DNA of 64,000 nucleotides, taken from assembly GCF_009834125.1 (NCBI RefSeq), contig NZ_CP047146.1, forward strand, positions 8,393,501-8,457,500, given 5' to 3'. Within the stretch, counting starts at the first letter, position 1; every line of letters begins with the position of its first letter. Both the position numbers and the translations under genes were made by a program. Below, one piece after another: positions 44,795 to 62,085 of this stretch. The DNA comes from Streptomyces sp. GS7. Its GTDB lineage: Bacteria; Actinomycetota; Actinomycetes; Streptomycetales; Streptomycetaceae. Below the pieces are notes generated by a model. That model searched no databases and had not been told where the DNA came from. It was given only the letters and a program-made list of their open reading frames with translations.

Positions 44795-45622
44795 TCACAG
44801 CGCTTCTCCGCCAACCCCGGTGATGTGGTCGGCCAGGTCCGCCCAGTGCCGGGTGATGGCGAAGTGGTCGCCGCCGGGGAAGACCCGCAACCGGAAGCCG
44901 CCGCTGGTGTGCGCGTGCCAGGCAGCCGCCTCGTCGACGGCGACCAGCGGGTCGCTGTCGCCGATCAGCGCGGTGACCGGCGTGGTCAGGGGCGGCCCCG
45001 GGCGGTGGCGGTAGGTCTCCACGGCCTTGTAGTCGCTGCGTACGACGGGCAGGGCCATGGCGAGGACGTCCCGGTTGTCCAGCAGCCGGGGGTCGGTGCC
45101 CTGGGTCCGCCGGATCTCGTCGACGAGGCCGTCGTCGTCCCGCAGGTGGACGGTGCCGCCGGGTACCCGGCTCGGGGCCCAGGCGCTGGAGACGATCAGC
45201 CGGTCCGGGCCCGCTCCGGCGCGCTCCAGGAGGCGCGCCACCTCGTACGCCACCAGGGCGCCCATGCTGTGCCCCAGCAGGGTCAGCGGGCGGCCGGCGA
45301 GCGGCGCCAGCGCCCGGTACGCGCGGGCCGCCAGCTCCGCCAGGTCCTCGATCCGGGCCTCGCGGATCCGGTCGTTGCGTCCCGGGTACTGGACGGCCAG
45401 CGTCTCGTACGGGCTGCCGTCCGCGGTGCGGGCGGCGACGGCGGTGGCCAGCGGCCGGAAGGCGCCGGCGCCGCCGCCCGCGTGCGGGAAGCAGACCACG
45501 CGGGCGAGTGCCGCCGTGCGGTGCGCGGGCCCGGGACGCAGCCGGCGCAGCCACGGGTCCGGGGCGGGCGCCACGGCCCGGCGGGGCCGGATGGCGGTGG
45601 CCGTTCGGGCGCTACATGCCAC
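44795..45622 (-). CDS. Type II thioesterase
   Basis: 275-residue alpha/beta-hydrolase of the external thioesterase class used with polyketide and peptide synthases. VVCFPHAGGGAGAF opens the domain, GHSMGALVAYEVARLL holds the nucleophilic Ser, and GDHFAITRHW the catalytic His. It should remove aberrant acyl groups from the ACP or help release the product. GTG 45622 overlaps the preceding SDR gene by 11 bases, so it is the last gene of the biosynthetic operon. Confidence 0.9.
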   Translation of the reverse strand: MACSARTATAIRPRRAVAPAPDPWLRRLRPGPAHRTAALARVVCFPHAGGGAGAFRPLATAVAARTADGSPYETLAVQYPGRNDRIREARIEDLAELAARAYRALAPLAGRPLTLLGHSMGALVAYEVARLLERAGAGPDRLIVSSAWAPSRVPGGTVHLRDDDGLVDEIRRTQGTDPRLLDNRDVLAMALPVVRSDYKAVETYRHRPGPPLTTPVTALIGDSDPLVAVDEAAAWHAHTSGGFRLRVFPGGDHFAITRHWADLADHITGVGGEAL

Positions 45623-46439
45623 GGGTGTAGCCCCCGTCGACGGTCAGGCTCTGCGCCGTGATGGCGGCGGCCCGGTCGGACACCAGGAACCCGATGAGGT
45701 CAGCGGCCTCCCGTGCCTCCACCAGCCGCCGCAGCGGGATGGACTTGCGGGCCTGGCGCAGCATCCGTGCCGGGTCGGCGCCGATCTCGTCCGCGGACGC
45801 GGCGAGTTCCCGGCGCAGCATCGGGGTGTCGATCCAGCCCGGCAGTACGGCGTTGACCGTGATCCCCCGGGAGGCGAGGTCCAGCGCCAGGCCCTTGGTG
45901 TAGCCGATCAGTCCGTGCTTGGAGGCGCAGTACGCGGTGTTCCGCATCTTGCCGGCCTTGCCGAGGATCGAGGACACGTTGACGATCCGGCCCTTGTCGA
46001 CCAGGTGTTCCAGGCAGGCGGCGGTGACCGCGAAGGTGCCGTGCAGGTTGACGTCCAGGACCCGCAGCCAGGTGGACTCGTCGTCGGGGGCGTTCTCGTC
46101 GGCGACCCCGGCGTTGTTCACCAGGATGTCCAGCTTGCCGGCGGAACGGAGCGCGGCCCGCAGTTCGGTGCGTACCCGGTCCCGTTCGCGCAGGTCCAGA
46201 GGGAGCGCGGTGACACGTGCGCCCAGGTCGCCGACGTCCTTGACCACGGTCTCCAGTCGGCCTGCGTCCCGGTCGAGCAGGATGAGGTGCGCGGCGCCCG
46301 ACTCGGCCAGCAGGAGGGCCACTTCGCGGCCGATGCCCTGGGCGGCGCCGGTGACGACCGCGGTCCGGCCGGCCAGTTCGCCGGGTGACGGACGCCCGCC
46401 GGGCGCGCCGGACGGTACGGAGGTGTCGATGTCGTTCAT
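45612..46439 (-). CDS. SDR-family oxidoreductase (ketoreductase-like)
   Basis: 275 residues. NAD(P)-binding TGAAQGIGREVALLLAESG, NNAG in DILVNNAGVA, catalytic Ser in NVSSILGKAG and Tyr/Lys in YCASKHG. C-terminal end SLTVDGGYTRGM is FabG-like. Probably a beta-ketoacyl reductase or a dehydrogenase of the biosynthetic pathway. A 22-residue N-terminal extension before the fold is polar. Lies 10 bases after the second SDR gene and overlaps the thioesterase gene. Confidence 0.9.
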   Translation of the reverse strand: MNDIDTSVPSGAPGGRPSPGELAGRTAVVTGAAQGIGREVALLLAESGAAHLILLDRDAGRLETVVKDVGDLGARVTALPLDLRERDRVRTELRAALRSAGKLDILVNNAGVADENAPDDESTWLRVLDVNLHGTFAVTAACLEHLVDKGRIVNVSSILGKAGKMRNTAYCASKHGLIGYTKGLALDLASRGITVNAVLPGWIDTPMLRRELAASADEIGADPARMLRQARKSIPLRRLVEAREAADLIGFLVSDRAAAITAQSLTVDGGYTRGM

Positions 46440-46449
46440 GGCCGGCCTC

Positions 46450-47196
46450 TCACGCCATCTTCAGGCCGCCGTCGATGTGCAGTACCTCGCCCGTCGTGTA
46501 CGTGTTGCGGGGGCTGGCGAGGTACGCCACGGCGTCGGCGATCGTCTCGGGTTCGGCGTAGGTCTTCAGCAGCAGCCGGCTCATGATCTCGTCCTCGCCG
46601 TGGCTGCGGATGGTGTCCGTCATGTCGGTGTTGATGACGCCCGGGGCGACGGCGTTGACGAGGATCCCGCGGGAGGCGAGTTCCACCGCCATCGCCTTGG
46701 TGAACGCCTCCAGACCGCCCTTGGCCGCCGCGTAGTTGGACTGCCCGCGGCCGGGCTTGGAGGCCGCGGACGACGAGATGTTGACGATCCGCCCGTACCG
46801 CTGGCGCAGCATGGCGGGGGCCACGGCCTGCACGGTGAGCATCGGGGCGACGAGGTTGGTGCCGAGGACGTCCTGGATGTCCTTGAGGCTCTGGTTGACC
46901 AGCAGTTCGTCGCGGGTGATGCCGGCGTTGTTGACCAGCACGTCGATCCGGCCGAAGGAGGCGCGGACGCCGGACACGGTCTTCTGCGGCACCTCGGGGT
47001 CGGAGATGTCGCCCTGGAACAGCTCGACCCTGCGGCCCAGCTTGGCGATCTGCTCGGCGACCTGTTCCGCTTCCGCCGTCGCGCTGCGGTAGGTGAGCGC
47101 GATGTCGCACCCTTCCTCCGCGAGCCGGACGGCGATGGCGCGGCCGATGCCCCGGCTGCCGCCGGTCACCAGGGCCACCTGTCCTGCGAATTCCAT
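46450..47196 (-). CDS. 3-oxoacyl-ACP reductase (FabG-like)
   Basis: 248 residues, FabG length. TGGSRGIGRAIAVRLAEEG binds NADPH; VLVNNAGITRDELLV, NISSSAASKPGRGQSNYAAA with KGG, and GVINTDMTDTI follow the FabG pattern, including catalytic Ser, Tyr and Lys. Expected to reduce the beta-keto group formed by the KS/CLF pairs. ATG 47196 gives the family start; a longer form adds 12 unconserved residues. It follows the aminotransferase/reductase gene by 125 bases. Confidence 0.92.
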   Translation of the reverse strand: MEFAGQVALVTGGSRGIGRAIAVRLAEEGCDIALTYRSATAEAEQVAEQIAKLGRRVELFQGDISDPEVPQKTVSGVRASFGRIDVLVNNAGITRDELLVNQSLKDIQDVLGTNLVAPMLTVQAVAPAMLRQRYGRIVNISSSAASKPGRGQSNYAAAKGGLEAFTKAMAVELASRGILVNAVAPGVINTDMTDTIRSHGEDEIMSRLLLKTYAEPETIADAVAYLASPRNTYTTGEVLHIDGGLKMA

Positions 47197-47321
47197 GGGG
47201 CTGGGATCCTCTCCAACTCGTGCCGGTTTCAAGGGATATGGGACTTGCTGGTGTCAGGGACATGGGGACCGGGCGCCGCGCGCGGTGGTGCGGGCGACGG
47301 GATGCGCGCGGCGCCCGGGGC

Positions 47322-50234
47322 TCACACCGAGTGCGCGCTCTTGTAGTCGGCCAGCCGCAGCCCGTGCGCGTCGGCCAGCGCGGCGATCTCGGTGACCTGG
47401 CGGCGGCTGATGTTCCCGTAGGAGTAGTGCCGGTCGAGTCCGGCCAGGCCCATCAGCGCGGTCTCCGCCATGCAGGCGAAGAGCTGGCCGGCCTCCAGGA
47501 AGGCGCGTGCCGAGGGGTGCAGGCTCTCGCCGTGGGGCGTGGCGACGATGCCGCCGAGCATGTACGCCAGGTCGGGCCGCCGCTCGGCCAGGTCCGGCAC
47601 CGCGTTGTTGGGCACCGCGATGTCGCAGACCACCGCGTCCCGGGCGAAGTGCTCGCCGGTCAGGAACGGTTCGGGGCTGTTGGAGGCGCACAGCACCAGC
47701 TGCGCCTCGCGGAGCGCGTCGCCGTCCTGGGTGACGGTCAGGAACGGGTCCCGGCCGTACCGTTCGTCCAGGTACGCGGCGATGGCCCGGCCGCGGTCGG
47801 CGTCGTCCGCGGACGGGTCCTCGGCCAGCCACTTGGTGATCAGCGGCTCCTCGGCCAGCCTGGCCGGGATGCCGGTCAGTTCGCCGCCGGCCGCGATGCG
47901 GGCCCAGCACTCCTGGTAGATGCCGTGCACGGTGTTCCGCAGCCGCCGCGCCGAACCGTCCCGGCGGCTGCCGACCAGCAGGATCCGGGTCAGCTTCTCG
48001 GCGAACAGCTGGCTGTAGACGGAGGCGATGTTGCCGGCCGCGCCGACCACCGCCAGCGTCGAGTCGGCGACGGTGCAGCCGCGGTCGCGGGCCCCGCGCT
48101 CCATGGCCTGTACGCCCATCGCGACGGTCAGCGCGTTCCCGGAGGTCAGCGCGATGCCCGGCACCTTCAGCGAGGTGCAGTTGTTCGTGACGATCGAGGT
48201 GTACATACCGAGCCCGGCGACCTCGCAGCCGTCGTCCCGGGCCGCCTGCACCCGCTCCTCGATGTCCGCCCGGATCCCGGTGACGTCCCCGGAGGCGAGA
48301 TAGCGGCCCATCTGCTCGGAGCCGACCATCAGCGGGTAGAGCGCGAACTCCACCGCGCTGCCCAACGGCGAGGTGATCCGCACGCCCGGGTACGGCGCCG
48401 CCTTCTTCACCGGGTCCATGCCCAGCACGAAGGAGCGCAGCCCGGCGTCGCTCAGGTCGGCCAGCGCCGGGTCCACCTGCCGCAGATGGGCCGGGGTGAT
48501 CAGGTGGTTGACGAACGCCACCTTGCGGACCGGCCCGCTCACCGGCCGCGCCGCGCCCTGCTCGTAGCCCTCGACGGCGCCCCGGAAGTCCCGGATCTCC
48601 GCACGCGGCTTGGGGATCGTCCGGTCGCTGGCCGGGTGGACCAGGTGGAGGGTGTCCTCGTAGCGCAGGATGCGGCAGAGCCGGTCCAGCGCGCCGCGCA
48701 GCCGCTCGATCTCCTCGTCCGTGATGTACGCGGACGGCTGGATGCGCAGGACGTTGCCGGCGCTGCCGGTCGGCGCGATCCGGATGCGCTCCTGGCGCAG
48801 CAGGTAGCCGGAGAGCAGATAGCCCAGCGAACCGGTGTACGCGCCGCCGCGCAGCACCATGGAGCGGGCCTGGCCCTGGTCGCGCAGCTGGACGCCGAGG
48901 AACAGGCCCTTGCCGCGGATGTCCTCGATGACGTCCGGGTACGCCGACCTGAGGTCGGCCAGCATCTCCACCAGCCGCTCGCCGCGCTCGGTGACCTGCC
49001 GGTACGCCGCGCCGCCGTCGGCCTCCAGCATCTCGACGACCTTGCGCGCGACGGACGAGGAGAAGTCGTCCATGGCGAACGTCGAGCTGTGGATCAGGTC
49101 GAACTCGCCCTGGTAGAGCGATCGGCGGACCAGCATCGCGGAGATCTTGGCGAGGCCGCCGCCCAGCGACTTGGACAGCGTGTAGTAGTCGCCGCGCAGC
49201 CCGATCAGCGAGCTGGCCAGGAAGGCGCCGCAGCGGCCCATACCGCTCTGCACCTCGTCGATGATCAGCGCGGTGCCGACCTTGTTGCAGAACAGCCGGA
49301 TGGCCCGGCCCGCTTCGGTGGTCAGCGCGTGGATGCCGCCCTCGCCCTGCACCGGCTCGACGAGGAAGGCGGTGATGACCGGGAGGTCCCGCTCCACGAC
49401 CCGCACCCGGCCGTCGGCGACCTCGGTGTCGAGCAGCACCACCCGCTCGTCCTCGGCGATCCGGTCCAGCAGCTCCAGCCGGTCCATCGGGACGAAGCGG
49501 ACCCGCGTCCCGAGGTTCTGGAACGGCGCGCGGAAGCCGGAGTTGTAGGTCAGCTGGACGCTGCCGACGAGCTTGCCGTGGAAGGACCGCTCCAGGGCCA
49601 GGAACAGCGGCCGGGTGGCCAGCGCCGCGGCGTTGTGCGCGCCGACCGCCGCCAGCAGCCCCTCGATCCCGTCGGCCGGCGCCGCCTGGCCCTGGACGGC
49701 GGGCAGTTGGAAGGCTTCCGGGTCCACCGCGGCCGCGCCGCGGCGGACCGCCTCCCGGGCGGCCTCGGCGTGTGCGGCGGTCTCGTCCGCCAGCGCCGCC
49801 GCCTGGCGCACCCGCACCAGCTCGGCATGTTTGACGGCCGCCTCGACCGCCTCCGCGCCGCTGTTCCCGAAGGTGGCCAGGTACGGCTCCTTGACGGAGG
49901 TCTCGCGGCGCACCGCGTCGCTGAGCGCGGCGCCGAGCCGGCCGGCCTCGCCGCGCAGCGAGAACTGCGCGTGCACCGCGCGGTTGTGGTCCAGCAGCTC
50001 CTTGGCGTGCGCCACGATCTCGGGGTGGTTGTGCCCGAAGATCAGCGAGCCGTAGCCGCCCATCAGGTCCAGGACGGGCACCAGCTCGCCCCGGTCGTCG
50101 CGGTGGTGGAGGGTGTTGCCCTCGGCCCGCTCGTACTCGACGTCCAGCCCCAGGGCGGTGAGCACCCGCCCCATCTGTGGCTGCACGAATTCGGTGAACG
50201 CCGACATTGCCGTTGTGGCTGACATCGCTGACAT
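47322..50234 (-). CDS. Fusion of class III aminotransferase and acyl-ACP-reductase-like domain
   Basis: 970 residues. Residues about 40-530 are a class III PLP aminotransferase: GNSGAEAVEAAVKHA, LIIDEVQSGMGRCG, and the PLP-lysine motif YYTLSKSLGGGLAK (Lys355). From about 560 on the protein resembles long-chain acyl-ACP reductases: GMYTSIVTNNCTSLK, ALTSGNALTVAMGVQAMERG, then a Rossmann segment STLAVVGAAGNIASVYSQLF and LLVGSRRDG. Together they should reduce an ACP-bound chain to an aldehyde and transaminate it to an amine. The order is the reverse of that recalled for PigE. Confidence 0.88.
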   Translation of the reverse strand: MSAMSATTAMSAFTEFVQPQMGRVLTALGLDVEYERAEGNTLHHRDDRGELVPVLDLMGGYGSLIFGHNHPEIVAHAKELLDHNRAVHAQFSLRGEAGRLGAALSDAVRRETSVKEPYLATFGNSGAEAVEAAVKHAELVRVRQAAALADETAAHAEAAREAVRRGAAAVDPEAFQLPAVQGQAAPADGIEGLLAAVGAHNAAALATRPLFLALERSFHGKLVGSVQLTYNSGFRAPFQNLGTRVRFVPMDRLELLDRIAEDERVVLLDTEVADGRVRVVERDLPVITAFLVEPVQGEGGIHALTTEAGRAIRLFCNKVGTALIIDEVQSGMGRCGAFLASSLIGLRGDYYTLSKSLGGGLAKISAMLVRRSLYQGEFDLIHSSTFAMDDFSSSVARKVVEMLEADGGAAYRQVTERGERLVEMLADLRSAYPDVIEDIRGKGLFLGVQLRDQGQARSMVLRGGAYTGSLGYLLSGYLLRQERIRIAPTGSAGNVLRIQPSAYITDEEIERLRGALDRLCRILRYEDTLHLVHPASDRTIPKPRAEIRDFRGAVEGYEQGAARPVSGPVRKVAFVNHLITPAHLRQVDPALADLSDAGLRSFVLGMDPVKKAAPYPGVRITSPLGSAVEFALYPLMVGSEQMGRYLASGDVTGIRADIEERVQAARDDGCEVAGLGMYTSIVTNNCTSLKVPGIALTSGNALTVAMGVQAMERGARDRGCTVADSTLAVVGAAGNIASVYSQLFAEKLTRILLVGSRRDGSARRLRNTVHGIYQECWARIAAGGELTGIPARLAEEPLITKWLAEDPSADDADRGRAIAAYLDERYGRDPFLTVTQDGDALREAQLVLCASNSPEPFLTGEHFARDAVVCDIAVPNNAVPDLAERRPDLAYMLGGIVATPHGESLHPSARAFLEAGQLFACMAETALMGLAGLDRHYSYGNISRRQVTEIAALADAHGLRLADYKSAHSV

Positions 50235-50248: not shown

Positions 50249-51622
50249 TCAGGAGAGATGCGGCCGTCGGGCGAGCAGAGCTCCCGCGAACCCGTTGAAG
50301 GTGCTGTGCAGACTGAGCACGGAGTCGATCCGCCGCTTCCTGGCGGTACCGGTGACGAAGTCGGTGCCGTCGTCCGGCGGCGACTCCAGATGCGCGACGG
50401 GCGGCAGCTCACCGGCCGCGAACAGGCTGGGCGCCAGGGCCAGTTCGGCCAGCGGTCCGGCGGCCCCCAGCGTGCCCAGGATCGGCCGTACGGAGCTGAC
50501 CGGGACGCCGCTGTCCTTCAGCAGCGCCCGCAGCAGCTCGGCCTCGGCGGCGTCGTGGTGGACGGTGCCCTTGCCGTCGGCCAGCACGGCGCCCAGCGAC
50601 TCCGGCGCCAGCCCGTGCGCGGCGATCAGCCCGCGGGCGCTCTCCGCCGGCCCGGCCGGGCCGACCCCGCCGTCCGCGGCGGGCCGCAGCGTCGCGCCCA
50701 GCACCTCCACCAGCGGGACGGCGCCGCGCGCCACGGCGTCCCCGGCCCGCTCCAGTACGAGCGCCACCGCGCCCTCGCCGAGGACCGTGCCGTCCCGCCC
50801 GGCGTCGAAGCTGCGCAGCGAGTCACCGCCGCGGCCGCCCGCGCTCAGATGCCCGGCGCGGTACTGCGCGGCCAGCTTCAGCGGCTCGTTGTAGCTGCCC
50901 GCGCCGACCACCATGGCGGTGTCGCAGTCGCCCCGGCGCAGGCTGAACGCGGCCCGCTGCAGGGCACTCAGCGCCGCGCCCGCGTCCTGCACGAACGCCG
51001 CGCAGTCGCCGCGGAACCGCTGGGCGATGCTGATCAGCGCCAGGGTGTTGTTGTTCAGCGCCCGGATGACGGTGAACGGGTTGAAGGTCGCCGCGTTGCC
51101 GAACGCCTCCGCCACCACCCGCGTAAGGTCCGCGCCCACCTGCCCCGAGGTGTCCGTCCGGGCCTGGTCGAGGGCCTTGTGGAAGGCCGCCACGCTCAGC
51201 TCCGTCGAGTCGTCCTGGGCCACGTACAGCCCGCGCCGCTCCTCGGGGATCGCCTGCCAGCCCTCCCCCGCCTGGGCCATGGCGTCCTGGGCGGCGAGCA
51301 CCGCGTTGAAGGTGAACGAGGCGCCGAACTTGCGCAGTTTGTGGGGCACGCTGTCCCGGCTCGCCCGCTGGAGCTCGTCCGGGACGTGCCCGAAGTGGGT
51401 GATCTTCCGGGTCCGTACGTACGGGTCCCGGTAGGGCGCCAGCGCGGGCCGCGCCTCGCGCCAGGCCGTCCACAGGGCCTCGGCGCCGCGCCCGGTGGGC
51501 AGCACCGCGCCGATGCCGGTGACGACGACGGCGTCGGAGCCGTACGACCGCTGCGCGGAGCCGCCGTCGGCGCTGTCGGCGCCAGAAGTGACGCCCGTGC
51601 TCGAATCGATGTCAGTGCTCAT
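50249..51622 (-). CDS. Chain-length-factor-like ketosynthase homologue
   Basis: 457-residue thiolase-fold protein. VVVTGIGAVLPTGRGAEALW opens a KS-like fold, but the nucleophile region reads RGDCAAFVQDAGAALSALQ with Asp in the expected Cys place, the first His region reads ADGKGTVHHDAAEAE, and the GH motif reads LGTLGAAGPLAE. It is therefore a chain-length-factor (KS-beta) type subunit. ATG 51622 overlaps the stop codon of the catalytic KS gene by 11 bases, giving a KS-CLF pair. Confidence 0.85.
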   Translation of the reverse strand: MSTDIDSSTGVTSGADSADGGSAQRSYGSDAVVVTGIGAVLPTGRGAEALWTAWREARPALAPYRDPYVRTRKITHFGHVPDELQRASRDSVPHKLRKFGASFTFNAVLAAQDAMAQAGEGWQAIPEERRGLYVAQDDSTELSVAAFHKALDQARTDTSGQVGADLTRVVAEAFGNAATFNPFTVIRALNNNTLALISIAQRFRGDCAAFVQDAGAALSALQRAAFSLRRGDCDTAMVVGAGSYNEPLKLAAQYRAGHLSAGGRGGDSLRSFDAGRDGTVLGEGAVALVLERAGDAVARGAVPLVEVLGATLRPAADGGVGPAGPAESARGLIAAHGLAPESLGAVLADGKGTVHHDAAEAELLRALLKDSGVPVSSVRPILGTLGAAGPLAELALAPSLFAAGELPPVAHLESPPDDGTDFVTGTARKRRIDSVLSLHSTFNGFAGALLARRPHLS

Positions 51623-52886: not shown

Positions 52887-54067
52887 TTCCCGACTCCTTC
52901 CAGTACGACGGCGCACACCTGGCCGCGCGCACCGCAGGCCAGCACCAGCGCCCGGGGCTCCGGCAGCGCCTCCTCGCGCACCCCGTCACCGCCGTCCGCC
53001 AGCCGCCGGCCGCCGGCCAGCCCGTGCAGCGCCAGCAGCACATGGGCCAGCGGATGGGCGGGGCCGAGCACACCGGTGGCCCGCTCGCTGGTGAACTCCG
53101 CGGGCCGGTGCGCGAGCGCCCCGAAGACCCGGTCGAGCGCGGCGCGCTGCGCCCGCGCCCCGGCCGCCGACCACACGGCGTCCGGCAGCACCCAGCCGAT
53201 CCCCGCGGCGTCCGTACGGGCCGTCTCCAGTGCCGCGTGCACGGCCTCCGCGATCGCCTCCGCACGGTCGCCCTCGGTGGCGCCGAACGCCCGCCCGTAG
53301 CCGGCCAGTCGGGCCGCCGGTACACCGTCCCCGGTGCCGTCCCCGGCCCGCTCGGCGAGCAGGAAGGCCGCCCCCTCGCCGGGGACCGCCCCGTTCCAGT
53401 CCAGTTCCTCGTACTGCGCGAAGAGCAGCGGATGCACCTTGGGGCTGACCGCGCCGACCACCGCCGCCGCGTTCTCCCCCTCGGCGACCGACAGCGCCCC
53501 GTCGATCAGTGCTTCGAGGCCGGCGTCCGAGAACGGCGAGTACGCCGCCATCGCGCCGGTCAGCCCGAAGACCGCCGAGATGTGCGCCGCGGCCGTGCTG
53601 TTGAGGTGCGAGAGCCCGCTGAACGGCGGGACCTCCCGCGCGAAGAGGGCGGCCACCTCCTGGGGCGAGTCGGCGGCCCGGTGCAGCCGGTCCAGCGCGC
53701 CGAACCGCAGCAACTCCTCGTCCACCGTGGGCAGTCCGAGGTACAGCCCCCAGCCGGGCCCGCCCACCGGACCCCGCGCGCCCGGCCCGGCCAGTGCGAG
53801 CCGCGCCCCGTACAGCGCCATCCGCGCCTGCTTCTCCGAGGTGCGCAGCACCCGGCGGTGCACGCCCAGCGTGGCGGCGTCCGGGTCGTCCACCAGGAAG
53901 GCGGTGTCCGTCTCCGGCCAGGGCCCTGCCAGGAACTCGGACGGCCGGCCGGTGTCCTTGCCGGCGACCAGGGCCTCCCACAGGGCGCCCGGGTCCGTAC
54001 CGGCCGCGGTGTATAAGCCCGGTGCGGTCAGCCGCACCGTGTCACGCGTCGTCATGGTCGCGCTCAC
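52883..54067 (-). CDS. Chain-length-factor-like ketosynthase homologue
   Basis: 394 residues, shorter and more divergent than the other CLF. KS-like landmarks survive (SHLNSTAAAHISAVFGL; NGAVPGEGAAFLLAERAG; LGPAHPLAHVLLALHG), but no nucleophilic Cys or the two catalytic His motifs. It should form a heterodimer with the KS encoded upstream. GTG 54067 overlaps that KS stop codon (GTGA); ATG 54055 is an alternative. Confidence 0.82.
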   Translation of the reverse strand: MSATMTTRDTVRLTAPGLYTAAGTDPGALWEALVAGKDTGRPSEFLAGPWPETDTAFLVDDPDAATLGVHRRVLRTSEKQARMALYGARLALAGPGARGPVGGPGWGLYLGLPTVDEELLRFGALDRLHRAADSPQEVAALFAREVPPFSGLSHLNSTAAAHISAVFGLTGAMAAYSPFSDAGLEALIDGALSVAEGENAAAVVGAVSPKVHPLLFAQYEELDWNGAVPGEGAAFLLAERAGDGTGDGVPAARLAGYGRAFGATEGDRAEAIAEAVHAALETARTDAAGIGWVLPDAVWSAAGARAQRAALDRVFGALAHRPAEFTSERATGVLGPAHPLAHVLLALHGLAGGRRLADGGDGVREEALPEPRALVLACGARGQVCAVVLEGVGK

Positions 54068-55371
54068 CCCGCCTGGGCCAGGATCAGGGAACAGTTCTGG
54101 CCGCCGAAGCCGAAGGAGTTCGACAGCACCGCGGTCACCCGCGCGGCACGCCGCTCGGTGACCACGTCCAGGCCGGCGGTGACCTCGTCCGGTTCGGCGA
54201 AGTTGAGGGTCGGCAGCACGGTCTGCCGCTGCAGGCTGAGCACCGAGAGCACCGCCTCCGCCGCACCGCTGTTGGCCAGCGAGTGCCCCATGGCGGACTT
54301 GTTGCCGGTGATCGGGACGCCGGCGGCCCGCTCCCCGAAGACGGTGTGCAGGGCCGCCGCCTCACAGGTGTCGTTGGCCTGGGTCGAGGTGGCGTGCGCG
54401 TTGATGTGGTCGATGTCGTCCGGGGCGAGCCCGGCGTCCGCCAGCGCCGCCCGGATGCAGTCGGCGTAGTCCGAACCGTCCCGCGAACTGGACGTCATCT
54501 TCACCGCCTCGGTCACCCCGGCGTACCCGGCGACCCTGGCCAGGATGCGGGCCCCGCGCGCCTCGGCGTGCGCCCGCGACTCCAGGACGAGGAAGGCCGC
54601 GCCGTCCCCGATGACGAAGCCCGAGCGGTCCTTGTCGAACGGGCGGCTGATCTCCGCCGGCTCCTTGCCGGCCGACGGGGCGAGCGCGCCCACCCCGTAG
54701 AAGGCGGCGACGGAGGTCAGCGTGGTCAGGCTCTCGGCGCCCCCGGCCAGCGCCACGTCGAGCGCGCCGCTGCGGATGTAGCGGTACGCGCTGCCGATCG
54801 CCATCCCGCCCGCGGCACAGGCGTCCGCATGGGTCTCCAGGACGCCGGCCGCGCCGAAGTAGTCGGCGAGGCTGCCGGTGGCGGTGTCCGGCTGGATCCG
54901 CGCATGGCGCCGCGGGTCGGGCCCGGCGTCCGCGTCGAGGTAGCCGTCCAGGTCGAACGCCCCGGCCCCGTAGTCCACATGGGCGGCCAGGCCGGTGAGT
55001 TCGGCCGGCTCCATGACCATGCGGTTGCAGGCCAGGAAGACGCCGCCGCGCTCGCTGTCCAGCCGCCGCGGCAGTCCGCTGCGCTCCCACGCCTGGGCGG
55101 CGGCGTGCCAGGCGAGGACGCCGGCCGGCCCCAGGGGCCCGGCCTCCTCCGGCGCCGCGTCCTCCAGGGCCTGCCGGACCTGCGGGTCGATGTGCGCCGA
55201 GACGGCGCAGGGGACGCCCCACTCCTTGTGGCGGGGGTGCTCGGTGATGAGAGTGCGCCCTTGCGCGATGTGGTCGAACAGCGCCTCGGGGTCGGTCAGT
55301 TGCCCGGCGACCAGGCCGATCCCGGTCACCACGACCTCGTGTTCGGCCCCGTTGGGTATGAGGGGGTTCAA
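54064..55371 (-). CDS. Beta-ketoacyl synthase (catalytic KS)
   Basis: 435 residues. Triad: Cys in ETHADACAAGGMAIG (about 183), His in INAHATSTQAND and His in NKSAMGHSLANSG; terminal motif LSNSFGFGGQNCSLILAQ. The TTG start at 55371 is chosen because GGAAGG is four bases upstream and it places EVVVTGIGLVAG correctly; a GTG at 55410 would add 13 odd residues. First KS after the ACP gene; pairs with the CLF that follows. Confidence 0.92.
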   Translation of the reverse strand: MNPLIPNGAEHEVVVTGIGLVAGQLTDPEALFDHIAQGRTLITEHPRHKEWGVPCAVSAHIDPQVRQALEDAAPEEAGPLGPAGVLAWHAAAQAWERSGLPRRLDSERGGVFLACNRMVMEPAELTGLAAHVDYGAGAFDLDGYLDADAGPDPRRHARIQPDTATGSLADYFGAAGVLETHADACAAGGMAIGSAYRYIRSGALDVALAGGAESLTTLTSVAAFYGVGALAPSAGKEPAEISRPFDKDRSGFVIGDGAAFLVLESRAHAEARGARILARVAGYAGVTEAVKMTSSSRDGSDYADCIRAALADAGLAPDDIDHINAHATSTQANDTCEAAALHTVFGERAAGVPITGNKSAMGHSLANSGAAEAVLSVLSLQRQTVLPTLNFAEPDEVTAGLDVVTERRAARVTAVLSNSFGFGGQNCSLILAQAG

Positions 55372-55424: not shown

Positions 55425-56003
55425 TCAGCCGACCGGCTGGGCGTGCCCGATCGCCTCCAGCGCCGCGCGGACGCCGTCGGCCATCACCTCGTCACCGGTG
55501 GCCGCCTCCAGCGCCGCGCCGCAGCCGGCGCAGACGGCCTTGCCGGACACCGCGAGTTCGGCCTTGTCGGCGCCGCACTCGGTGCAGGTCGCGGGCAGGT
55601 GGTCGAAGATCGCGTGGGTGAAGGAGGCCCAGTGGGCGCTGGTGGCCGCCGCGGCGACCTCGTACGGCCGCATCCCGGCGTGCACCTGCTCCTCGGAGTA
55701 GCCGAACGCGCTGCGGCGCAGCACCTCGGCGGCCAGCTCGGAGATTCCGCCGCGCTCGTCGTAGAGCTGCTCGGAGCCGCCGAGCGCGGTCGCGAGCAGG
55801 TCCAGGACGTTCGACTTGGGCAGTGCCACGCCGAGCTTGGTCTCCATCTCGAAGCGGAATTCGACCAGGTCGAGGGATTCCGCACCCAGGTCCGCGACAA
55901 GGGTGGCGTCCGGCGTGATCTCGTCGGCGCCGGTGCCCAGTACCTGGGCCAGCCCTTCTCGGACAATCTCGTGGATCTGCGCCGCCTCGTAGGGGTTCTG
56001 CAT
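55425..56003 (-). CDS. Acyl carrier protein with C-terminal zinc-ribbon extension
   Basis: 192 residues, more than twice a normal ACP. Residues 1-75 are an ACP with the phosphopantetheine site DLGAESLDLVEF (Ser43). A helical linker follows, then Cys140-x2-Cys143 and Cys158-x2-Cys161 (CTECGADKAE and CAGCGAAL), a probable zinc ribbon, and a short helix to the end. It should carry the growing chain for the KS/CLF pairs; the zinc domain may dock a partner. GAGGAGAC precedes the ATG at 56003. First gene of the core operon. Confidence 0.9.
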   Translation of the reverse strand: MQNPYEAAQIHEIVREGLAQVLGTGADEITPDATLVADLGAESLDLVEFRFEMETKLGVALPKSNVLDLLATALGGSEQLYDERGGISELAAEVLRRSAFGYSEEQVHAGMRPYEVAAAATSAHWASFTHAIFDHLPATCTECGADKAELAVSGKAVCAGCGAALEAATGDEVMADGVRAALEAIGHAQPVG

Positions 56004-56722
56004 GGTTGTCTCCTCGTTTCCTAGTACTCCGAGCACCACCGTTTACCGGCCATTCGAAACCCGGAAAACGGCAGCAGAAATTACCCGGCAACGTGCGTTG
56101 GGTAGCCGCTCGCCAACGCCCGGAAAGCCTGACGGCACAGTGAATTCGAGGTTACGAGCGCCCGCTTTCGCAGACGCCAGGAAAGCCGTTCAGGAATTCA
56201 CGTCACGACTGCCGCAGCGACCGGCGGTCGGCGATGAGTTGATGGGAAGCCCTCGGGCGAGATGACATGACACCGTCACAACGGCGAGGTCAGCCCTGGG
56301 GCAGTAGACAGGGGCACACTTCCGGACACCAGGAAGTCCCCACTTCAGACACCTTAAAAGGCGCTACACATGCCATCCCCCGTAGCAAAAAGGATCCCCC
56401 GACACCTGCATGCTCAAGAACAGGCCATTTCCGGTCGGCAGTCACACCGTCGTGACGCACTCACGAAGCCCGTCCCGCCTCAACTGGAGGCGCGATAAAA
56501 ACGTTACCACCGCCACCCAGGACCGTCACTCATTTGTGCGATAGGTCACGCGACCGAGTCGGGTACTAGAGGGGCCCGCAATAAATGTTCTGTGGTATCG
56601 CAAAACTTAACGCGGCATTCACATTCCGGAGAGTCTGATTCCCCTCCGGCAGGATTTCGCTTGTTACCCCGAGTAATCTCACGACGGGCACGCCCTTTTC
56701 GGCCGCCCCGGCACACACCGCC
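56004..56722. other. Long AT-richer upstream region of the ACP-KS operon
   Basis: About 720 bases, visibly richer in A and T than its surroundings (for example 56580-56640). No gene is supported. It must contain the promoter of the core operon and holds a near-copy of the palindrome found before the saccharopine-dehydrogenase-like gene. Confidence 0.6.
56541..56558 (-). promoter_or_regulatory. Second copy of the cluster palindrome
   Basis: ATAGGTCACGCGACCGAG. It matches the perfect-arm site at 61307-61324 at 16 of 18 positions, including an uninterrupted 14-base core (TAGGTCACGCGACC). Probable binding site of the cluster's TetR regulator in the upstream region of the ACP-KS operon. Confidence 0.75.
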
Positions 56723-57952
56723 TCACGCGACCGACCCGCCCGGCACCGGCTCGCCGGCCCGCTCCTCCTGGAGCCGCCCCGCATACGCCGCCAGCCGCCG
56801 CCCCAGATTCACACTCACCGCACCGACCAGCCGGCCCTCCCGGTAGTGCGCCTCCACCAGCTTCCCCGAGTCCGGATCCCCCTCCTCGACGACCACCCGG
56901 TCCCCGGTCCCCGGCAGCCCCACCGACCTGATCCGCAGCCCGAACGCCGACGTCCAGAACGACGGCACATGCACATACGGCTCCGCGGCCGCCGGCCCCG
57001 CCAGCAGATTCCCGGCCGCCAACTCCCCCTGCGCAGCCGCGTTGCTCCAGTGCTCCAGCGGCACCGGCCCGTCCGCCGCACGCACCGCGTCGCACCACGC
57101 GACATCCCCGGCCACCACGATCCGCGGATCCGTCACCCCGGCCACCCCCGCCGTCCGCGCGAACAGCCGCTCGTCGCAGTGGACCCGCCCGGACGGCAGC
57201 GCCAGCCCGGCACCCACCAGCCACCCGGTCGCCGGCGCCATCCCGATCGCCACCACCACCAGCTCCGCCGGCAGCACCTGCCCGTCGGCCAGCTCGACCC
57301 CGCCGACCCGCTCCCCCACCGACCGGAAGCCCCGCACCCCGACCCCGAGCCGCAGCTCGACGCCCGCCCGCCGCGCCGCCCCCGCCACCAGACCGGACAC
57401 CGCTCCGCCCAGCGCCCGCAACGGCCGCGCGAACGGCTCCACCAGCGTCACCCGCACCCCGAGCCCCAGCTCGGTCAGCGACGACGCCAGCTCCACACCG
57501 ACGAACCCCGCCCCGACGACAACCACCTCACGGGCCCCGCCGTCCACCGCCGCCCGCAGCCCGCGCACGTCGTCCAGCCCGCGCACCGTCAGCACCCCGG
57601 CCGCCGGCACCTCCCCGGGCCAGGCCCGCGCCCGCGCACCGGTCGCCAGCACCAGCCCGTCGTACGAAAGCTCCGACCCGTCCGCGAGCCGCACCCGCCG
57701 CCGCTCCCGGTCCAACCCGACCGCCGCGGCACCCCGCACCCAGCGGGCGCCGAAGTCCTCGGCGCCCGCCAGCCGGATATCGGCCTCCGCAACGGCCCCG
57801 GTGATCAGCTGCTTCGTCAACGGCGGCCGGTCATACGGCAGTTCCCGCTCGTCCGACACCACGGTCAGCGCCCCGGAGAACCCCCGCGCCCGCAGCGAGC
57901 CACCGGCCCGGACACCCGCCAGGCCCGCGCCCACCACGACGACCTCGTGCAA
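56723..57952 (-). CDS. Ferredoxin reductase (FAD/NADH type)
   Basis: 409 residues. Starts EVVVVGAGLAGVRAGGSLRA (FAD-binding GxGxxG), has a second dinucleotide motif VVVVGAGFVGVELASSL and the FAD-contact motif RIVVAGDVAWCDA. Matches the putidaredoxin-reductase group that passes electrons from NADH to a small ferredoxin and then to a P450. The start is a TTG at 57952, three bases after the ferredoxin stop codon, with GAGGGGG upstream inside the ferredoxin gene. Confidence 0.9.
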   Translation of the reverse strand: MHEVVVVGAGLAGVRAGGSLRARGFSGALTVVSDERELPYDRPPLTKQLITGAVAEADIRLAGAEDFGARWVRGAAAVGLDRERRRVRLADGSELSYDGLVLATGARARAWPGEVPAAGVLTVRGLDDVRGLRAAVDGGAREVVVVGAGFVGVELASSLTELGLGVRVTLVEPFARPLRALGGAVSGLVAGAARRAGVELRLGVGVRGFRSVGERVGGVELADGQVLPAELVVVAIGMAPATGWLVGAGLALPSGRVHCDERLFARTAGVAGVTDPRIVVAGDVAWCDAVRAADGPVPLEHWSNAAAQGELAAGNLLAGPAAAEPYVHVPSFWTSAFGLRIRSVGLPGTGDRVVVEEGDPDSGKLVEAHYREGRLVGAVSVNLGRRLAAYAGRLQEERAGEPVPGGSVA

Positions 57953-57955
57953 GGC

Positions 57956-58147
57956 TCAGGCCCCCTCGACCGCGATCGCGCGCACCGGGCAGGCCCGCGC
58001 CGCGGCAGCCACCCTCCCGGCCAGCTCCGGCGCCGGATCCGGCGCCACCACCAGCCGCTCGTCGTCGTCCAGCGAGAAGACCTCGGGCGCGACCAGAGCA
58101 CACTGCCCCAGCCCGTCACACAGGTCGTGGTCCACCGTGATCCGCAT
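57956..58147 (-). CDS. Small ferredoxin for the P450
   Basis: 63 residues: RITVDHDLCDGLGQCALVAP, then EVFSLDD and ACPVRAIAVEG. Three cluster Cys (C-x5-C and CP near the end) give a 3Fe-4S-type ferredoxin, the class usually paired with Streptomyces P450s. The ATG at 58147 gives the standard N-terminus. Sits between P450 and ferredoxin-reductase genes on the same strand. Confidence 0.93.
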   Translation of the reverse strand: MRITVDHDLCDGLGQCALVAPEVFSLDDDERLVVAPDPAPELAGRVAAAARACPVRAIAVEGA

Positions 58148-58235
58148 ACCGACCTCCCCCAACTCCCTTACGCATGACATCCCGTACGCACCGGTCACCG
58201 CGGACCGGCACCAGCTCCTGCCTGACGGGCAGGCC

Positions 58236-59423
58236 CTACACCGACCCCCGCGCATACCGCAGCGGCAGCTCCTCCAGCCCGCGGATCGCGTCCGAGGCCA
58301 GCCACCGCACCTCCCCCTCCGGAACCGCCAGCTCCAGCGTCGGGAACCGCGCCAGGATCTCCGTCAGCGCGATCGTCGCCTCCTGGCGGGCCAGCCGCTG
58401 CCCCAGGCAGAAGTGCGGCCCCATCCCGAACGCGACATGCCGCGCGGTCGCCCGCCCGATGTCGAAGACGTGCCCGTCCTCCCGCACCGCCGCGTCCCGG
58501 TTCGCCGCGTTCAGCAGGAACCGCACCAGCTCGCCCCTGCGGATGGTGACCCCGCCGGCCTCGATGTCCTCCAGCGCCACCCGGTTGACCGTCGTCATCG
58601 CCGACCCCCGGAACCGCAGCGCCTCCTCCACCGCACTGGCGACCAGCGACGGATCCCGCCGCAGCGCGGCCAGTTGCTCCGGATGCGTCAGCAGCTCGTA
58701 CAGGGCGTTGGCCAGCAGGTTCGTCACCGTGTCATGGCCCGCGATCAGCAGCACCGCGGCGAACGACGACAGCTCCTCGTCCGTCAGCGCACTCCCGTCC
58801 TCGAACCGCGCCGCGATCAGCTCGCCGAGCAGATCCTCGGTCGGCCGCTCCCGCTTCGCCCCGATCAGCCCGATGCAGTACCCGAACAGCTCGGCCGCCG
58901 ACGCCTGCATCACCTCCAGCGACGGCGCCGCGGAGATGTCCATCGCCCACTTCCGGAACGGATCCCGGTCCTCGCCCGGCACCCCCAGCAGATCGCAGAT
59001 CACCTCCAGCGGCATCGGATAGGTGAACGCGTCGATGAAGTCCGCGGTCCCGCCGTCCCCCAGTTTGTCCAGCAGCTGCCGGGTGATCTCCTCGATACGC
59101 GGCTCCAGCCGACGCACCGCCTTCGACGCGAACGCCGCGGTCACCAGCCGCCGGTACCGGGCGTGCCCCGGGTCGTCCTGCTCCAGGAGCATCACCTGGA
59201 GCCCCGGAACCAGTGCCCCGTGCGGCGCGTGCGTGTGCACATCGTTGGACAGCCGCGGATCGCTCAGCAGCTCCCGGGTCAGCGCCGCGCCCAGCACCGT
59301 CCAGGTCTCCTGCTGGTTCAGCTGACGCGTACGGATGATGCCGTGGCTCCCGGCCAGCCGCGCCAGCTCCTGCTCCAGACCGGCCGACGCCGCGAGCTCG
59401 GCAAGATCGATCACCTCGGACAT
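58236..59423 (-). CDS. Cytochrome P450
   Basis: 395-residue bacterial P450. Haem-binding loop FGMGPHFCLGQRLARQEA, oxygen-activating I-helix LLIAGHDTVTN and ExxR in EEALRFRG (with EALR). With its own ferredoxin and reductase encoded downstream it is a complete three-component monooxygenase, expected to hydroxylate or otherwise oxidise the product of the polyketide-like pathway. ATG 59423; the gap before it lies downstream of the TetR gene, so partial read-through is possible. Confidence 0.95.
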   Translation of the reverse strand: MSEVIDLAELAASAGLEQELARLAGSHGIIRTRQLNQQETWTVLGAALTRELLSDPRLSNDVHTHAPHGALVPGLQVMLLEQDDPGHARYRRLVTAAFASKAVRRLEPRIEEITRQLLDKLGDGGTADFIDAFTYPMPLEVICDLLGVPGEDRDPFRKWAMDISAAPSLEVMQASAAELFGYCIGLIGAKRERPTEDLLGELIAARFEDGSALTDEELSSFAAVLLIAGHDTVTNLLANALYELLTHPEQLAALRRDPSLVASAVEEALRFRGSAMTTVNRVALEDIEAGGVTIRRGELVRFLLNAANRDAAVREDGHVFDIGRATARHVAFGMGPHFCLGQRLARQEATIALTEILARFPTLELAVPEGEVRWLASDAIRGLEELPLRYARGSV

Positions 59424-59569
59424 GACGAAACTCCCCCTATCCCCCTGGATGTTCCTCACCTGACGGAGCGCCGACCCGCCGCCCACAGACGGCCCGGGCC
59501 GGCCCGCCCCGGAAAACCCCCGCCCCCGACACCACCGGACGGCGGCCACACCGCCGCCGCCCCGGCACC

Positions 59570-60238
59570 TCAGTCGCGGAGCAACTGCACAGCCTGCTGC
59601 GCGAGTTGTTCGTCCATCGCGCCCGACCGGCTCCCGGCGATCCCCGACCTCATCAGGGCCGCCCCCTCGACCAACGCCACAAACGTCTCGGCGCGCGCCC
59701 GGCACAGCTCGGCCGACCAGTCCGGCCGCCCCTGCTGCACATAGGCCTCCACATGGGCCACGTACTTCCGGTAGAACTCCCGGACCACCGCGGCGATCTC
59801 GTCATCCCGCGCCGCCAGCGCCCACACCTCGACATACAGCCGGACCAGCTGCGGATCCTCCTGCTCGGCCAGCACCACCGCCACCACGTCGGCGGGGTTC
59901 GCCCGGCCCTCCGGGATCTCGATGACCGACGGATCATCCCGCGTCAGCCGCAGCCCGGTCGTCTCCGCCAGCCGCTCCAGCGACCGGTCCAGCGCCCGCT
60001 CCAGTACGGCCTTTATCAAGTCCGCCCGGGTCGGGAAGTAATGCTGCAGATGCCCGACCCGCACCCCCGCCTCACCGGCGATGGCCCGCAGCGACGCATC
60101 CGCGTTCCCCTTGGCGACCAGCACGGTCTCCGCGGCGTCCAGCAGACTCGTCCGCCGGATACTCCCCTGCCGCGTCAACTGCGGCTTCCCGCCGGCGCGC
60201 TTCTCGCTCTCCTCGTTCTCCTCGTTCTCCTCGCTCAT
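59570..60238 (-). CDS. TetR-family regulator of the biosynthetic cluster
   Basis: 222 residues. A polar Glu/Asn repeat start (EENEENEESEKRAGG) precedes the helix-turn-helix IRRTSLLDAAETVLVAKGNA, DASLRAIAGEAGVRVGHLQHYFPTRADLIK split by no gap. The C-terminal domain resembles the BetI/PfmR group. Its ATG overlaps the stop of the saccharopine-dehydrogenase-like gene (ATGA). It is the only regulator in the cluster, so it is the natural candidate to bind the palindromes at 61307 and 56541. Confidence 0.9.
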   Translation of the reverse strand: MSEENEENEESEKRAGGKPQLTRQGSIRRTSLLDAAETVLVAKGNADASLRAIAGEAGVRVGHLQHYFPTRADLIKAVLERALDRSLERLAETTGLRLTRDDPSVIEIPEGRANPADVVAVVLAEQEDPQLVRLYVEVWALAARDDEIAAVVREFYRKYVAHVEAYVQQGRPDWSAELCRARAETFVALVEGAALMRSGIAGSRSGAMDEQLAQQAVQLLRD

Positions 60239-61296
60239 GACACCGCGACCTCGACCCCCGCCTTCTCCAGCGCGGAGACGACATCCTGCGGCACCGGCGT
60301 CATCTCGGGGAAAACCACCCCGTCCGGCGCCGCGGCACCGTCCTCGCCCAGCACCCGGCGCAGCCCCAACAGCCCGCCCAGCGCGGTCAGATGAGCCTGC
60401 CCCGCGGTGTCCTTCAGCACGGCGGTACGGCGCTCGCCGCCCCGCCCCCGGACATCGATCCGCAGCAGCGCACTGCCGCCCTCGCCCGGCGAGTACAGCA
60501 TCGATCGCCGGGTCTTCTCGAACCTGTCGCCCCGCCCCCACCGGAAGAACCCGGTCTTCTTCAGCGCGAGCAGCGACGACGTCGACGAGTTGGCGCTGAA
60601 CCCGATCCGGGTGACCGCCGTGTCGACCCCCAGCGCCAGCGGCAGCGTGAACTGCTCCGGTGTGTCGATCCGCGCCACCTTCGTCCGGTGCTCACCGATC
60701 GCCACGTAACCGGCCCCGGTCAACGGCATGATCATCCGCCGTCGGCCGCCCTCGGTCACCTCGTAGTCCAGCCCCAGCCGGTCCATGAACTCCACCGAGT
60801 CGGTCCCCGCCCGGTCCTTGAGGTCGTACCGGATGGCGATCTCCACCGCCGACGCCCCACCCAGCTCGGCCGCCAGCGCCGCGGTGACCAGCGCGGTCAC
60901 CCCGCCCATCCAGCTCGACGACAGCAGCACCGGCGCCTTCGGCGGGTGCACCGCCGCCACCGCCGTGGCCCGCTGCAACCGCGCCGTCCACCGGGTGATG
61001 TCCACATACGGCACACCCCCGCGGATCGCCGCCCGCAGCACCCGGTCCTCCGGGTCGTTCACCGTACTGATCACGGCCCGCACCCGCGCCGAGAACGGCT
61101 CCGGATCACCGAGATCCCAGCGCCGCACCTCCGCCCCGACCTCATCGGCCAGCGCCCGCCCCTTCTCGGGCGTACGCCCCGTGAGCAGCAACGGCCAAGA
61201 GGGAGCGGCGAGCCGGGCCAGATCGCCGCCCACGGTCCCGTATCCGCCGACCACGAGCACCGGACCTGTCACATCAAGCTGGATGTCATCGTCCAC
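60235..61296 (-). CDS. Saccharopine-dehydrogenase-like NAD(P)-binding protein
   Basis: 353 residues. Rossmann start PVLVVGGYGTVGGDLARLA, then LLTGRTPEKGRALADE and ISTVNDPEDRVLRAAIRGGV with PYVDITRW, the pattern of short saccharopine-dehydrogenase-like reductases. Reaction unknown; in this setting it could reduce an imine or carbonyl intermediate, which is inference. GTG 61296 lies seven bases after the -10 TAGTGT, so the mRNA is probably leaderless. First gene of an operon with TetR. Confidence 0.82.
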   Translation of the reverse strand: MDDDIQLDVTGPVLVVGGYGTVGGDLARLAAPSWPLLLTGRTPEKGRALADEVGAEVRRWDLGDPEPFSARVRAVISTVNDPEDRVLRAAIRGGVPYVDITRWTARLQRATAVAAVHPPKAPVLLSSSWMGGVTALVTAALAAELGGASAVEIAIRYDLKDRAGTDSVEFMDRLGLDYEVTEGGRRRMIMPLTGAGYVAIGEHRTKVARIDTPEQFTLPLALGVDTAVTRIGFSANSSTSSLLALKKTGFFRWGRGDRFEKTRRSMLYSPGEGGSALLRIDVRGRGGERRTAVLKDTAGQAHLTALGGLLGLRRVLGEDGAAAPDGVVFPEMTPVPQDVVSALEKAGVEVAVS

Positions 61297-61303
61297 ACCG
61301 CAG

Positions 61304-61332
61304 ACACTAGGTCACGCGACCTAGAATCTCAA
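61304..61332 (-). promoter_or_regulatory. Promoter with palindromic operator in the spacer
   Basis: On the minus strand: TTGAGA (-35, 61332-61327), a 17-base spacer, TAGTGT (-10, 61309-61304). The dyad CTAGGTC-ACGC-GACCTAG (61307-61324) fills the spacer and overlaps the -10, ideal for repression. It precedes the saccharopine-dehydrogenase-like/TetR operon and is also about 90 bases before the divergent phosphopantetheinyl transferase gene. Confidence 0.85.
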
Positions 61333-61416
61333 CGCCCGACTCTGTCGGCCACGTCACATAAAGTCGCAAGCCCACCACCCCGCCGACCGGGAGCCACACC
61401 AAAGGAGTTGGGCCCG

Positions 61417-62085
61417 ATGCTCATCGAGAACGTCCTCCCCCCGACCGCCATCGGCGAGGACGCCCTCGGCGACCCGCTCCCGGCCACGTCCCCACCCCTC
61501 TTCCCCGTCGAGGAACAGCAGATCGCCCACGCCGGCGACAAACGCCGCCGCGAATTCACCACCGCCCGCCAGTGCGCCCACCGCGCCCTGACCCGCCTGG
61601 GCCTCCCGCCCACACCCCTGCCCCCGGACCCCACCGGCGCCCCCGCCTGGCCCCCCGGCATCACCGGCAGCATCACCCACTGCGACGGCTACCGCGCCGC
61701 CGCCGTGGCCCACACCACCGACATCCCCCACCTCGGCATCGACGCCGAGCCGCACGCCCCCCTACCGCCCACCGTCCGCGAGGGCATCACCACCCCCGCC
61801 GAACGCACCCACCTCCGCCAACTCCACGGCGCCCACCCGGACATCCACTGGGACCGCCTCCTCTTCAGCGCCAAGGAGTCCGTCTACAAAACCTGCTCCC
61901 GCCTCGCCCCCCGCCCCCTCCAGTTCCACGACGCCGAAATCACCTTCGCCCCCGACACCCACACCTTCACCGCCCGACTCCTCCTGCCCTGGCCCGCCGA
62001 CGTCCCCGCCCCCCTCCTCACCGGCCGCTGGCACACCTCCCACGGCATCGCCCTCACCGCCACCACCCTCCCCCGCCCCACCTGA
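61417..62085 (+). CDS. Sfp/EntD-type 4'-phosphopantetheinyl transferase
   Basis: 222 residues. The three family motifs are visible: GSITHCDGYRAAAVAH, LGIDAEPHAPLP (Mg-binding Asp/Glu) and LLFSAKESVYKTCSRL. It converts the apo-ACP of the cluster to the holo form by transferring the 4'-phosphopantetheine arm of CoA to the ACP serine. AAAGGAG lies ten bases before ATG 61417. Divergent from the saccharopine-dehydrogenase-like gene across the operator; the only plus-strand gene of the cluster and its right boundary. Confidence 0.94.
   Translation: MLIENVLPPTAIGEDALGDPLPATSPPLFPVEEQQIAHAGDKRRREFTTARQCAHRALTRLGLPPTPLPPDPTGAPAWPPGITGSITHCDGYRAAAVAHTTDIPHLGIDAEPHAPLPPTVREGITTPAERTHLRQLHGAHPDIHWDRLLFSAKESVYKTCSRLAPRPLQFHDAEITFAPDTHTFTARLLLPWPADVPAPLLTGRWHTSHGIALTATTLPRPT

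Follow-up and report, generated by a model that had tools for sequence, protein, structure and literature searches.

What product does a compact type II polyketide locus make when its putative release enzyme joins an aminotransferase to a reductase? Such a locus lies at 44.79-62.1 kb of a 64,000-nucleotide stretch of Streptomyces sp. GS7 (the window; positions 8393501-8457500 of the single-contig 9.07-Mb genome). A preliminary description pointed to streptoaminals and 5-alkyl-tetrahydroquinolines as possible precedents. Following that lead, we conclude that the locus is very probably the stm (streptoaminal/5-alkyl-1,2,3,4-tetrahydroquinoline, 5aTHQ) cluster of another Streptomyces. This identification draws on synteny with the producer S. 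nigrescens HEK616, a tree group with support 99, intact catalytic motifs, a gene order shared with kecA-H of the koreenceine cluster, the borders of the block, and a palindrome found at two places in the genome.

Core genes syntenic with the stm cluster of HEK616

The core of the locus is a nine-gene operon on the minus strand (44795-56003). Its genes are given below in operon order, each with its protein identity to HEK616 (ORF, open reading frame).

55425..56003, minus strand: acyl carrier protein (ACP; PF00550), with S43 and a C-terminal four-cysteine extension; 88%
54064..55332 (ORF open to 55410), minus strand: ketosynthase 1 (KS1), motifs DACAAG/NAHAT/GHSLA (Pfam, motifs); 86%
52883..54067, minus strand: chain-length factor 1 (CLF1), FSDAG at the KS-cysteine position (Pfam N-terminal domain only, motif); 77%
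51612..52886, minus strand: ketosynthase 2 (KS2), motifs STACAG/NAHGT/GHLIA (Pfam, sequence, motifs); 90%
50249..51628, minus strand: chain-length factor 2 (CLF2), VQDAG at the KS-cysteine position (Pfam, motif); 78%
47322..50234 (start possibly 50207), minus strand: class III aminotransferase/acyl-ACP reductase fusion (Pfam PF00202); 87%
46450..47196, minus strand: ketoreductase-like short-chain dehydrogenase/reductase 1 (SDR1), FabG-like (Pfam); 89%
45612..46439, minus strand: ketoreductase-like SDR2, FabG-like, YxxxK present (Pfam); 87%
44795..45574, minus strand: type II thioesterase, alpha/beta hydrolase with a GHSMG motif (Pfam PF00975, E 5.2e-50); 75%

Both ketosynthases keep their cysteine and histidine motifs. 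Chain-length factors lack the ketosynthase cysteine and carry other residues in its place, here VQDAG and FSDAG. SDR1 scores 264 bits against the NCBIfam 3-oxoacyl-ACP reductase model (cut-off 298), and SDR2 likewise falls below the cut-offs of FabG-type models; both weakly touch sugar-dehydratase/epimerase Pfam models, as is usual for SDRs. The preliminary description had listed no acyltransferase, cyclase, aromatase or dehydratase, and none was recognised among the ORFs of the block scanned with Pfam. All genes that it did name are present in the interval, one of them (the dehydrogenase, below) recognised through a structure model.

All nine genes have orthologues in the same order and orientation in HEK616 (AP026073.1), and across the 14 genes common to both loci protein identity runs from 73 to 91%. 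HEK616 is the published producer of both streptoaminals and 5aTHQs, antimicrobial ring compounds, and nine genes, HEK616_65060-64980, are reported for its stm cluster (PMC11272600). A second paper describes two sets of KS and CLF plus an aminotransferase in stm and reports that S. lividans expressing the cluster makes streptoaminals, joined by 5aTHQs under co-culture (PMC12187902). The streptoaminal/5-alkyl-tetrahydroquinoline lead has thus been verified at the level of all nine core genes (75-90% identity). Because HEK616 stm has the same genes and known products, it is just the kind of characterised cluster that the preliminary description had named as its refutation, and the novelty implied there is lost: cluster type and products were already known.

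Scanning a collection of species genomes with the fusion protein returned 26 loci, 14 of them in Streptomyces (86-95% identity over the best segment) and HEK616 among these; the nearest named record that we met was S. albospinus JCM 3399, whose fusion is 96% identical. We then placed the enzyme in a tree of 125 rows, comprising 116 of the 120 best of 688 hits, the window and eight loci; the tree was built by a quick method and rooted at the midpoint, with long branches flagged. The window and HEK616 fall together in a 16-row group with support 99, in which the named rows are all Streptomyces. Apart from this group stand the Pseudomonas-named rows, a Cellvibrio/pEAF66 group and a second actinobacterial group, the last at about 46% identity to the window's protein.

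Some points weigh against the identification. The product is predicted from the genes, and a protein divergence of 10-25% from HEK616 could alter chain length or ring type. We equated HEK616_65060-64980 with these nine genes by number and content, not by coordinates. Finally, a phosphopantetheinyl transferase (PPTase) gene and a GNAT gene at the right side of the locus differ from HEK616.

The fusion enzyme and the acyl carrier protein

The fusion retains the PLP lysine motif LSKSLGGG, the reductase cysteine motif FACMAET and the nucleotide-binding motif GAAGNI. Its aminotransferase part matches CrmG (491 bits) and also the reductase-aminotransferase chain 4ppm, which we take to be PigE; FACMAET aligns with CMAET of 4ppm. 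The fusion has both the catalytic cysteine and the nucleotide-binding motif expected of an AAR-type reductase. AAR is described as having a catalytic cysteine (PMC10829540), and it is to this description that the fusion is likened. The window's copy is the fusion's single match in its own genome at E <=1e-30. The same genome has 64 ketoacyl-synthase matches, among them giant modular polyketide genes with open frames of up to 10802 aa.

In another genome (locus L112; G160, contig 147, 1-18000) the gene for a fusion with 46% identity to that of the window comes directly after a modular type I polyketide synthase whose last domain is an ACP. The same release enzyme may also serve type I assembly lines. 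Downstream lie an MFS-exporter-like and an acyl-CoA-dehydrogenase-like gene, both so named from their sequence.

The ACP has 192 residues, and its extension contains the cysteines C140, C143, C158 and C161. These four residues and S43 are invariant in the 18 aligned rows, which cover Streptomyces (window included), Zoogloea, two Cellvibrio loci, the SZAS-77 bin and two proteins from metagenomes. L012, whose ACP was cut short by the extracted frame, was left out of the motif reading, the same strain being present in the alignment as P0244. With a mean pLDDT of 93.8, the structure model of the ACP is a confident one. Foldseek gave no known fold for the extension: the 50 matches listed span the ACP domain (about 70-85 residues), and none has E <0.001. 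Because the cysteines are paired, we infer that the extension holds a metal site. The four-cysteine extension may mark a wider family.

A cytochrome P450 module linked to the core

A gap of about 0.7 kb separates the ACP gene from a second group of genes (identities to HEK616 as above).

56723..57937, minus strand: ferredoxin reductase (PF07992, PF14759); 74%
57956..58198, minus strand: ferredoxin, single-cluster type (PF13370/PF13459); 73%
58236..59486, minus strand: cytochrome P450 with haem motif FGMGPHFCLG (PF00067); 86%
59570..60238, minus strand: TetR-family regulator (PF00440); 87%
60235..61296, minus strand: saccharopine-dehydrogenase-like oxidoreductase (structure model and Foldseek); 91%
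61417..62085, plus strand: 4'-phosphopantetheinyl transferase, Sfp type (PF17837, PF01648)

The best-matching solved chain for the P450 is PikC. The dehydrogenase-like protein had no Pfam match in a first scan and reached E 0.043 for PF03435 in another, below the family cut-off. In Foldseek, however, the structure predicted for it (pLDDT 92.2) finds dehydrogenases for carboxyspermidine and saccharopine (best E 8.6e-20), so the label it first received was right despite the low Pfam score.

To gauge how firmly these genes are tied to the core, we surveyed 199 Streptomyces genomes, GS7 included. A near-full-length fusion at >=87% identity occurs in five, and a P450 at >=86% in exactly those five, the P450s of the other genomes being at most 46% identical among the matches listed. 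The dehydrogenase-like protein (E <=1e-90) is at least 88% identical in the same five and 63-68% identical in six others. In 12 of the 14 Streptomyces fusion loci, S. composti among them, the P450 is seen together with the core; of the other two, L013 breaks off within the reductase gene and L021 stops short of it. A full-length PPTase orthologue (66-95%) shares the dehydrogenase gene's contig in 7 of 14 relatives, with cut pieces in two more; none stands beside that gene in HEK616.

Related species share ancestry and such counts are not independent events, so the stronger argument for linkage comes from differing flanks. S. swartbergensis has 15.3 kb on the left without a match to the window or HEK616 (blastn, 1e-20). 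Comparing right flanks at the same threshold (15.7 kb in S. mashuensis, 5.7 kb in S. swartbergensis, 7.7 kb in S. composti) gave no match among these three or to the window, HEK616 or S. endophytica; the left side of S. mashuensis ends with its contig. After the genus survey and the flank comparison we disfavour the idea that the P450 module is a chance neighbour and favour linkage. Relatives of the dehydrogenase at 63-71% identity are common in other actinobacteria.

A palindrome ahead of both transcription units

Aligning the leaders of seven loci, the window's among them, revealed a conserved palindrome ahead of the ACP operon. Within its 16 bp lies a 14-bp core, GGTCRCGYGACCTA, which the 9.07-Mb genome contains just twice, once before the core operon and once before the unit of dehydrogenase, TetR and P450 genes.

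56542..56557, no strand assigned: probable TetR operator, core-operon copy, an imperfect palindrome
61308..61323, no strand assigned: probable TetR operator, a palindrome of 16 bp whose two strands each match the consensus

With up to two mismatches allowed, the 16-bp form gives four strand-wise matches in the window, all at these two places. None of 100 shuffled controls reached four (mean 0.78, largest 3). The exact core is present at both places in HEK616, S. mashuensis, S. swartbergensis, S. composti and S. endophytica. Streptomyces sp. CB02959 (L103) has one mismatch per place to the 16-bp form and the exact core on the ACP side only, while the ACP-side site of S. noursei (L011) and that of another Streptomyces sp. 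(L014) each contain two mismatches.

The palindrome also accompanies the regulator where a full-length fusion is missing. The TetR/dehydrogenase pair occurs in six such Streptomyces genomes (L113-L118), all with a site beside the dehydrogenase gene; in five the site is an exact TAGGTC-N4-GACCTA, and in L116 there are two copies, each with a single mismatch. Searched over 101 genomes, this pattern hit seven. Five of them are all the dehydrogenase-bearing genomes in the set, with the site beside the gene, and the remaining two (G003, G098) are not among the dehydrogenase matches. Since the palindrome stands before both units and recurs in relatives, it is most likely an operator of the TetR protein, controlling both transcription units together. 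On our reading, the cluster took in an older TetR/dehydrogenase pair, and a further copy of the operator came to stand before the polyketide operon.

Between the palindrome and the ACP start, the leader of about 540 bp (56004-56541) has conserved blocks and an inverted repeat, CGCCTC/GAGGCG, exact in five of the seven loci. A known RNA element in this leader was considered and rejected, there being no Rfam match at the gathering score; across 44000-63000 the only such match is the 5S rRNA listed below.

Borders of the block

Two features lie just beyond the PPTase gene.

62114..62680: GNAT gene, just past the block
62814..62930: 5S rRNA of an rRNA operon (Rfam-type RNA scan)

Three relatives without the fusion (L104, L105 and L106; G137, G064 and G036) serve as empty sites. 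In each, the left flanking gene (the orthologue of 43120-44787) adjoins the GNAT gene, 29-48 bp away by tblastn ends compared with 17.3 kb in the window. Because these cluster-free relatives have both flanking genes side by side, 44.79-62.1 kb appears to be one 17.3-kb block that includes the P450 module, the TetR gene, the dehydrogenase-like gene and the PPTase gene. The gene order is conserved elsewhere and the borders first drawn for the cluster coincide with insertion ends in the three empty-site relatives; the grouping is therefore not a chance one.

HEK616 carries its block at the same left border. In both strains an rRNA operon adjoins the cluster, which lies on the operon's 3' side. 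Two further candidates were rejected as simple empty sites: in L111 the contig ends just past the left gene, and in L107 (G090) about 4 kb of other DNA separates the left gene from the 5S rRNA. Given this DNA in L107, the site may receive other inserts too. Gene calling and family scans over 43.1-62.7 kb recognised no integrase or transposase. A TraG-like gene at 41648-43123 was rejected as a cluster member, with matches at E <=1e-200 in 196 of the 199 genomes; in three draft assemblies (S. swartbergensis, S. composti, S. mashuensis) its contig is not the one that carries the cluster.

Alternative readings of the locus

With its KS/CLF pairs, ACP and ketoreductases, the locus might be taken for a classical aromatic type II polyketide cluster. 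We give this virtually no credence: the interval has no cyclase or aromatase recognised by Pfam, and it has two KS/CLF pairs and a reductase-aminotransferase release enzyme. A koreenceine-type cluster, in which two extensions of a fatty acyl starter lead to 2-alkyl-tetrahydropyridines, shares more with it, namely the order ACP-KS-CLF-KS-CLF-fusion-SDR-SDR of kecA-H and, in KecF, the same kind of fusion, as described in PMC6498172. This too is very improbable. The window's fusion is 87% identical to that of HEK616 and 44-46% identical to Pseudomonas-named rows, which form a separate branch (KecF itself was not identified among the rows), and no transport gene like kecI-K was recognised in the block.

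The nine core genes might be the whole pathway, with the P450, ferredoxin, reductase, TetR, dehydrogenase-like and PPTase genes as unrelated neighbours. Published stm is, after all, a nine-gene cluster (PMC11272600), the expression of which in S. lividans gave streptoaminals and, in co-culture, 5aTHQs (PMC12187902). The TetR/dehydrogenase pair occurs in 6 of 199 genomes lacking the full-length fusion, the PPTase gene is not beside stm in HEK616, and the TetR, dehydrogenase, P450, ferredoxin and reductase genes are unmatched near five proteobacterial homologues. We nevertheless consider a purely nine-gene pathway unlikely, for the P450 and the fusion occur at high identity in the same five genomes, the module stays attached to the core in S. 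mashuensis, S. swartbergensis and S. composti, where the flanks differ, and the palindrome precedes both units.

A proposed route to the product

On the reading of the locus as stm, with substrates, reaction order and product all deduced, the PPTase or a host enzyme would activate the ACP, and a fatty acyl starter would be lengthened with malonyl units by the two KS/CLF pairs. Some keto groups would be reduced by the two SDRs; host enzymes would transfer the malonyl groups and carry out the dehydration or enoyl reduction that the cluster lacks. The C-terminal half of the fusion would then convert the acyl-ACP to an aldehyde and its N-terminal half would transaminate it, an order that we adopt because of the domain matches and because reduction followed by transamination has been proposed for KecF (PMC6498172). 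The preliminary description had suggested that a reduced type II chain is released by reduction and transaminated, and the comparison supports it. The amine and an internal ketone would close to a cyclic imine, which could go on to a spiro-hemiaminal or, with one extra unsaturation, to a tetrahydroquinoline.

Since the compound name implies carbonyl-derived carbons 1, 5 and 9, the tetrahydroquinoline skeleton would require a starter and four extensions, with every second step reduced. Four extensions are twice the two proposed for koreenceine and would suit KS/CLF pairs that alternate unreduced and reduced steps. For the last stage, a 2025 review (PMC12187902) ties 5aTHQ formation with high specificity to co-culture and offers two possible routes, a skipped dehydration or re-oxidation of a streptoaminal. 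The P450 set could carry out such a re-oxidation. Against this stands the formation of 5aTHQs by S. lividans expressing stm in co-culture; the P450 may not be needed there, or another enzyme may take its place. As for control, regulation of streptoaminals and 5aTHQs was not known according to the 2024 paper (PMC11272600).

A tentative and, on balance, rather doubtful proposal goes further: stm would be a unit of 14-15 genes under one TetR switch, in which the P450, ferredoxin and reductase perform an oxidation that the nine-gene model lacks, most interestingly by diverting a streptoaminal precursor to the aromatic tetrahydroquinoline, and the dehydrogenase-like enzyme acts on a cyclic imine. 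The linked P450 module offers a concrete candidate oxidase, and the two-site palindrome a concrete candidate switch. We did not find a description of either in the literature searched; subscription papers lay outside that search, and we therefore do not claim them as unpublished.

Comparison with known systems

Reductases paired with aminotransferases are known from other pathways. CrmG, PigE and TamH work with different polyketide partners. CrmG (caerulomycin) has an aminotransferase domain like the N-terminal half of the fusion. PigE (prodigiosin), for which we take 4ppm and to which a PigE family model also points, pairs a reductase with an aminotransferase, although in 4ppm the reductase part comes first. 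TamH (tambjamine) is described with the same pairing (PMC9594044).

Among whole clusters, the pEAF66 soil metagenome clone and proteobacterial homologues (Zoogloea, Cellvibrio) have fusions 50-56% identical to the window's, and the proteobacterial loci L023-L026 keep eight core genes in order. They differ in having no P450 module in the stretches compared, and the thioesterase likewise has no match in the five proteobacterial loci compared. We rejected pEAF66 as the immediate sister of stm, as it groups with Cellvibrio rows in the fusion tree. The kec cluster of Pseudomonas koreensis (koreenceines A-D) shares the order of eight core genes (ACP, KS, CLF, KS, CLF, aminotransferase-reductase fusion and two reductases in kecA-H) and the KecF-type fusion (PMC6498172). 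The window adds a thioesterase and the P450 module, its fusion sits in another branch than the Pseudomonas-named rows, and its block has no membrane or transport genes recognised by Pfam as like kecI-K, which Streptomyces clusters are also said to lack in that paper.

The closest likeness is to stm of HEK616. The two loci share the nine core genes in order and orientation, the reductase, ferredoxin, P450, TetR and dehydrogenase-like genes, both palindromes and the left neighbour genes. On the right, the window has the PPTase and GNAT genes; no match to either was found there in HEK616, where the rRNA operon comes next. The cluster type is thus a known one, to which the present comparison adds a suggested outline of the unit, a candidate switch and the cysteine-bearing extension of the ACP.

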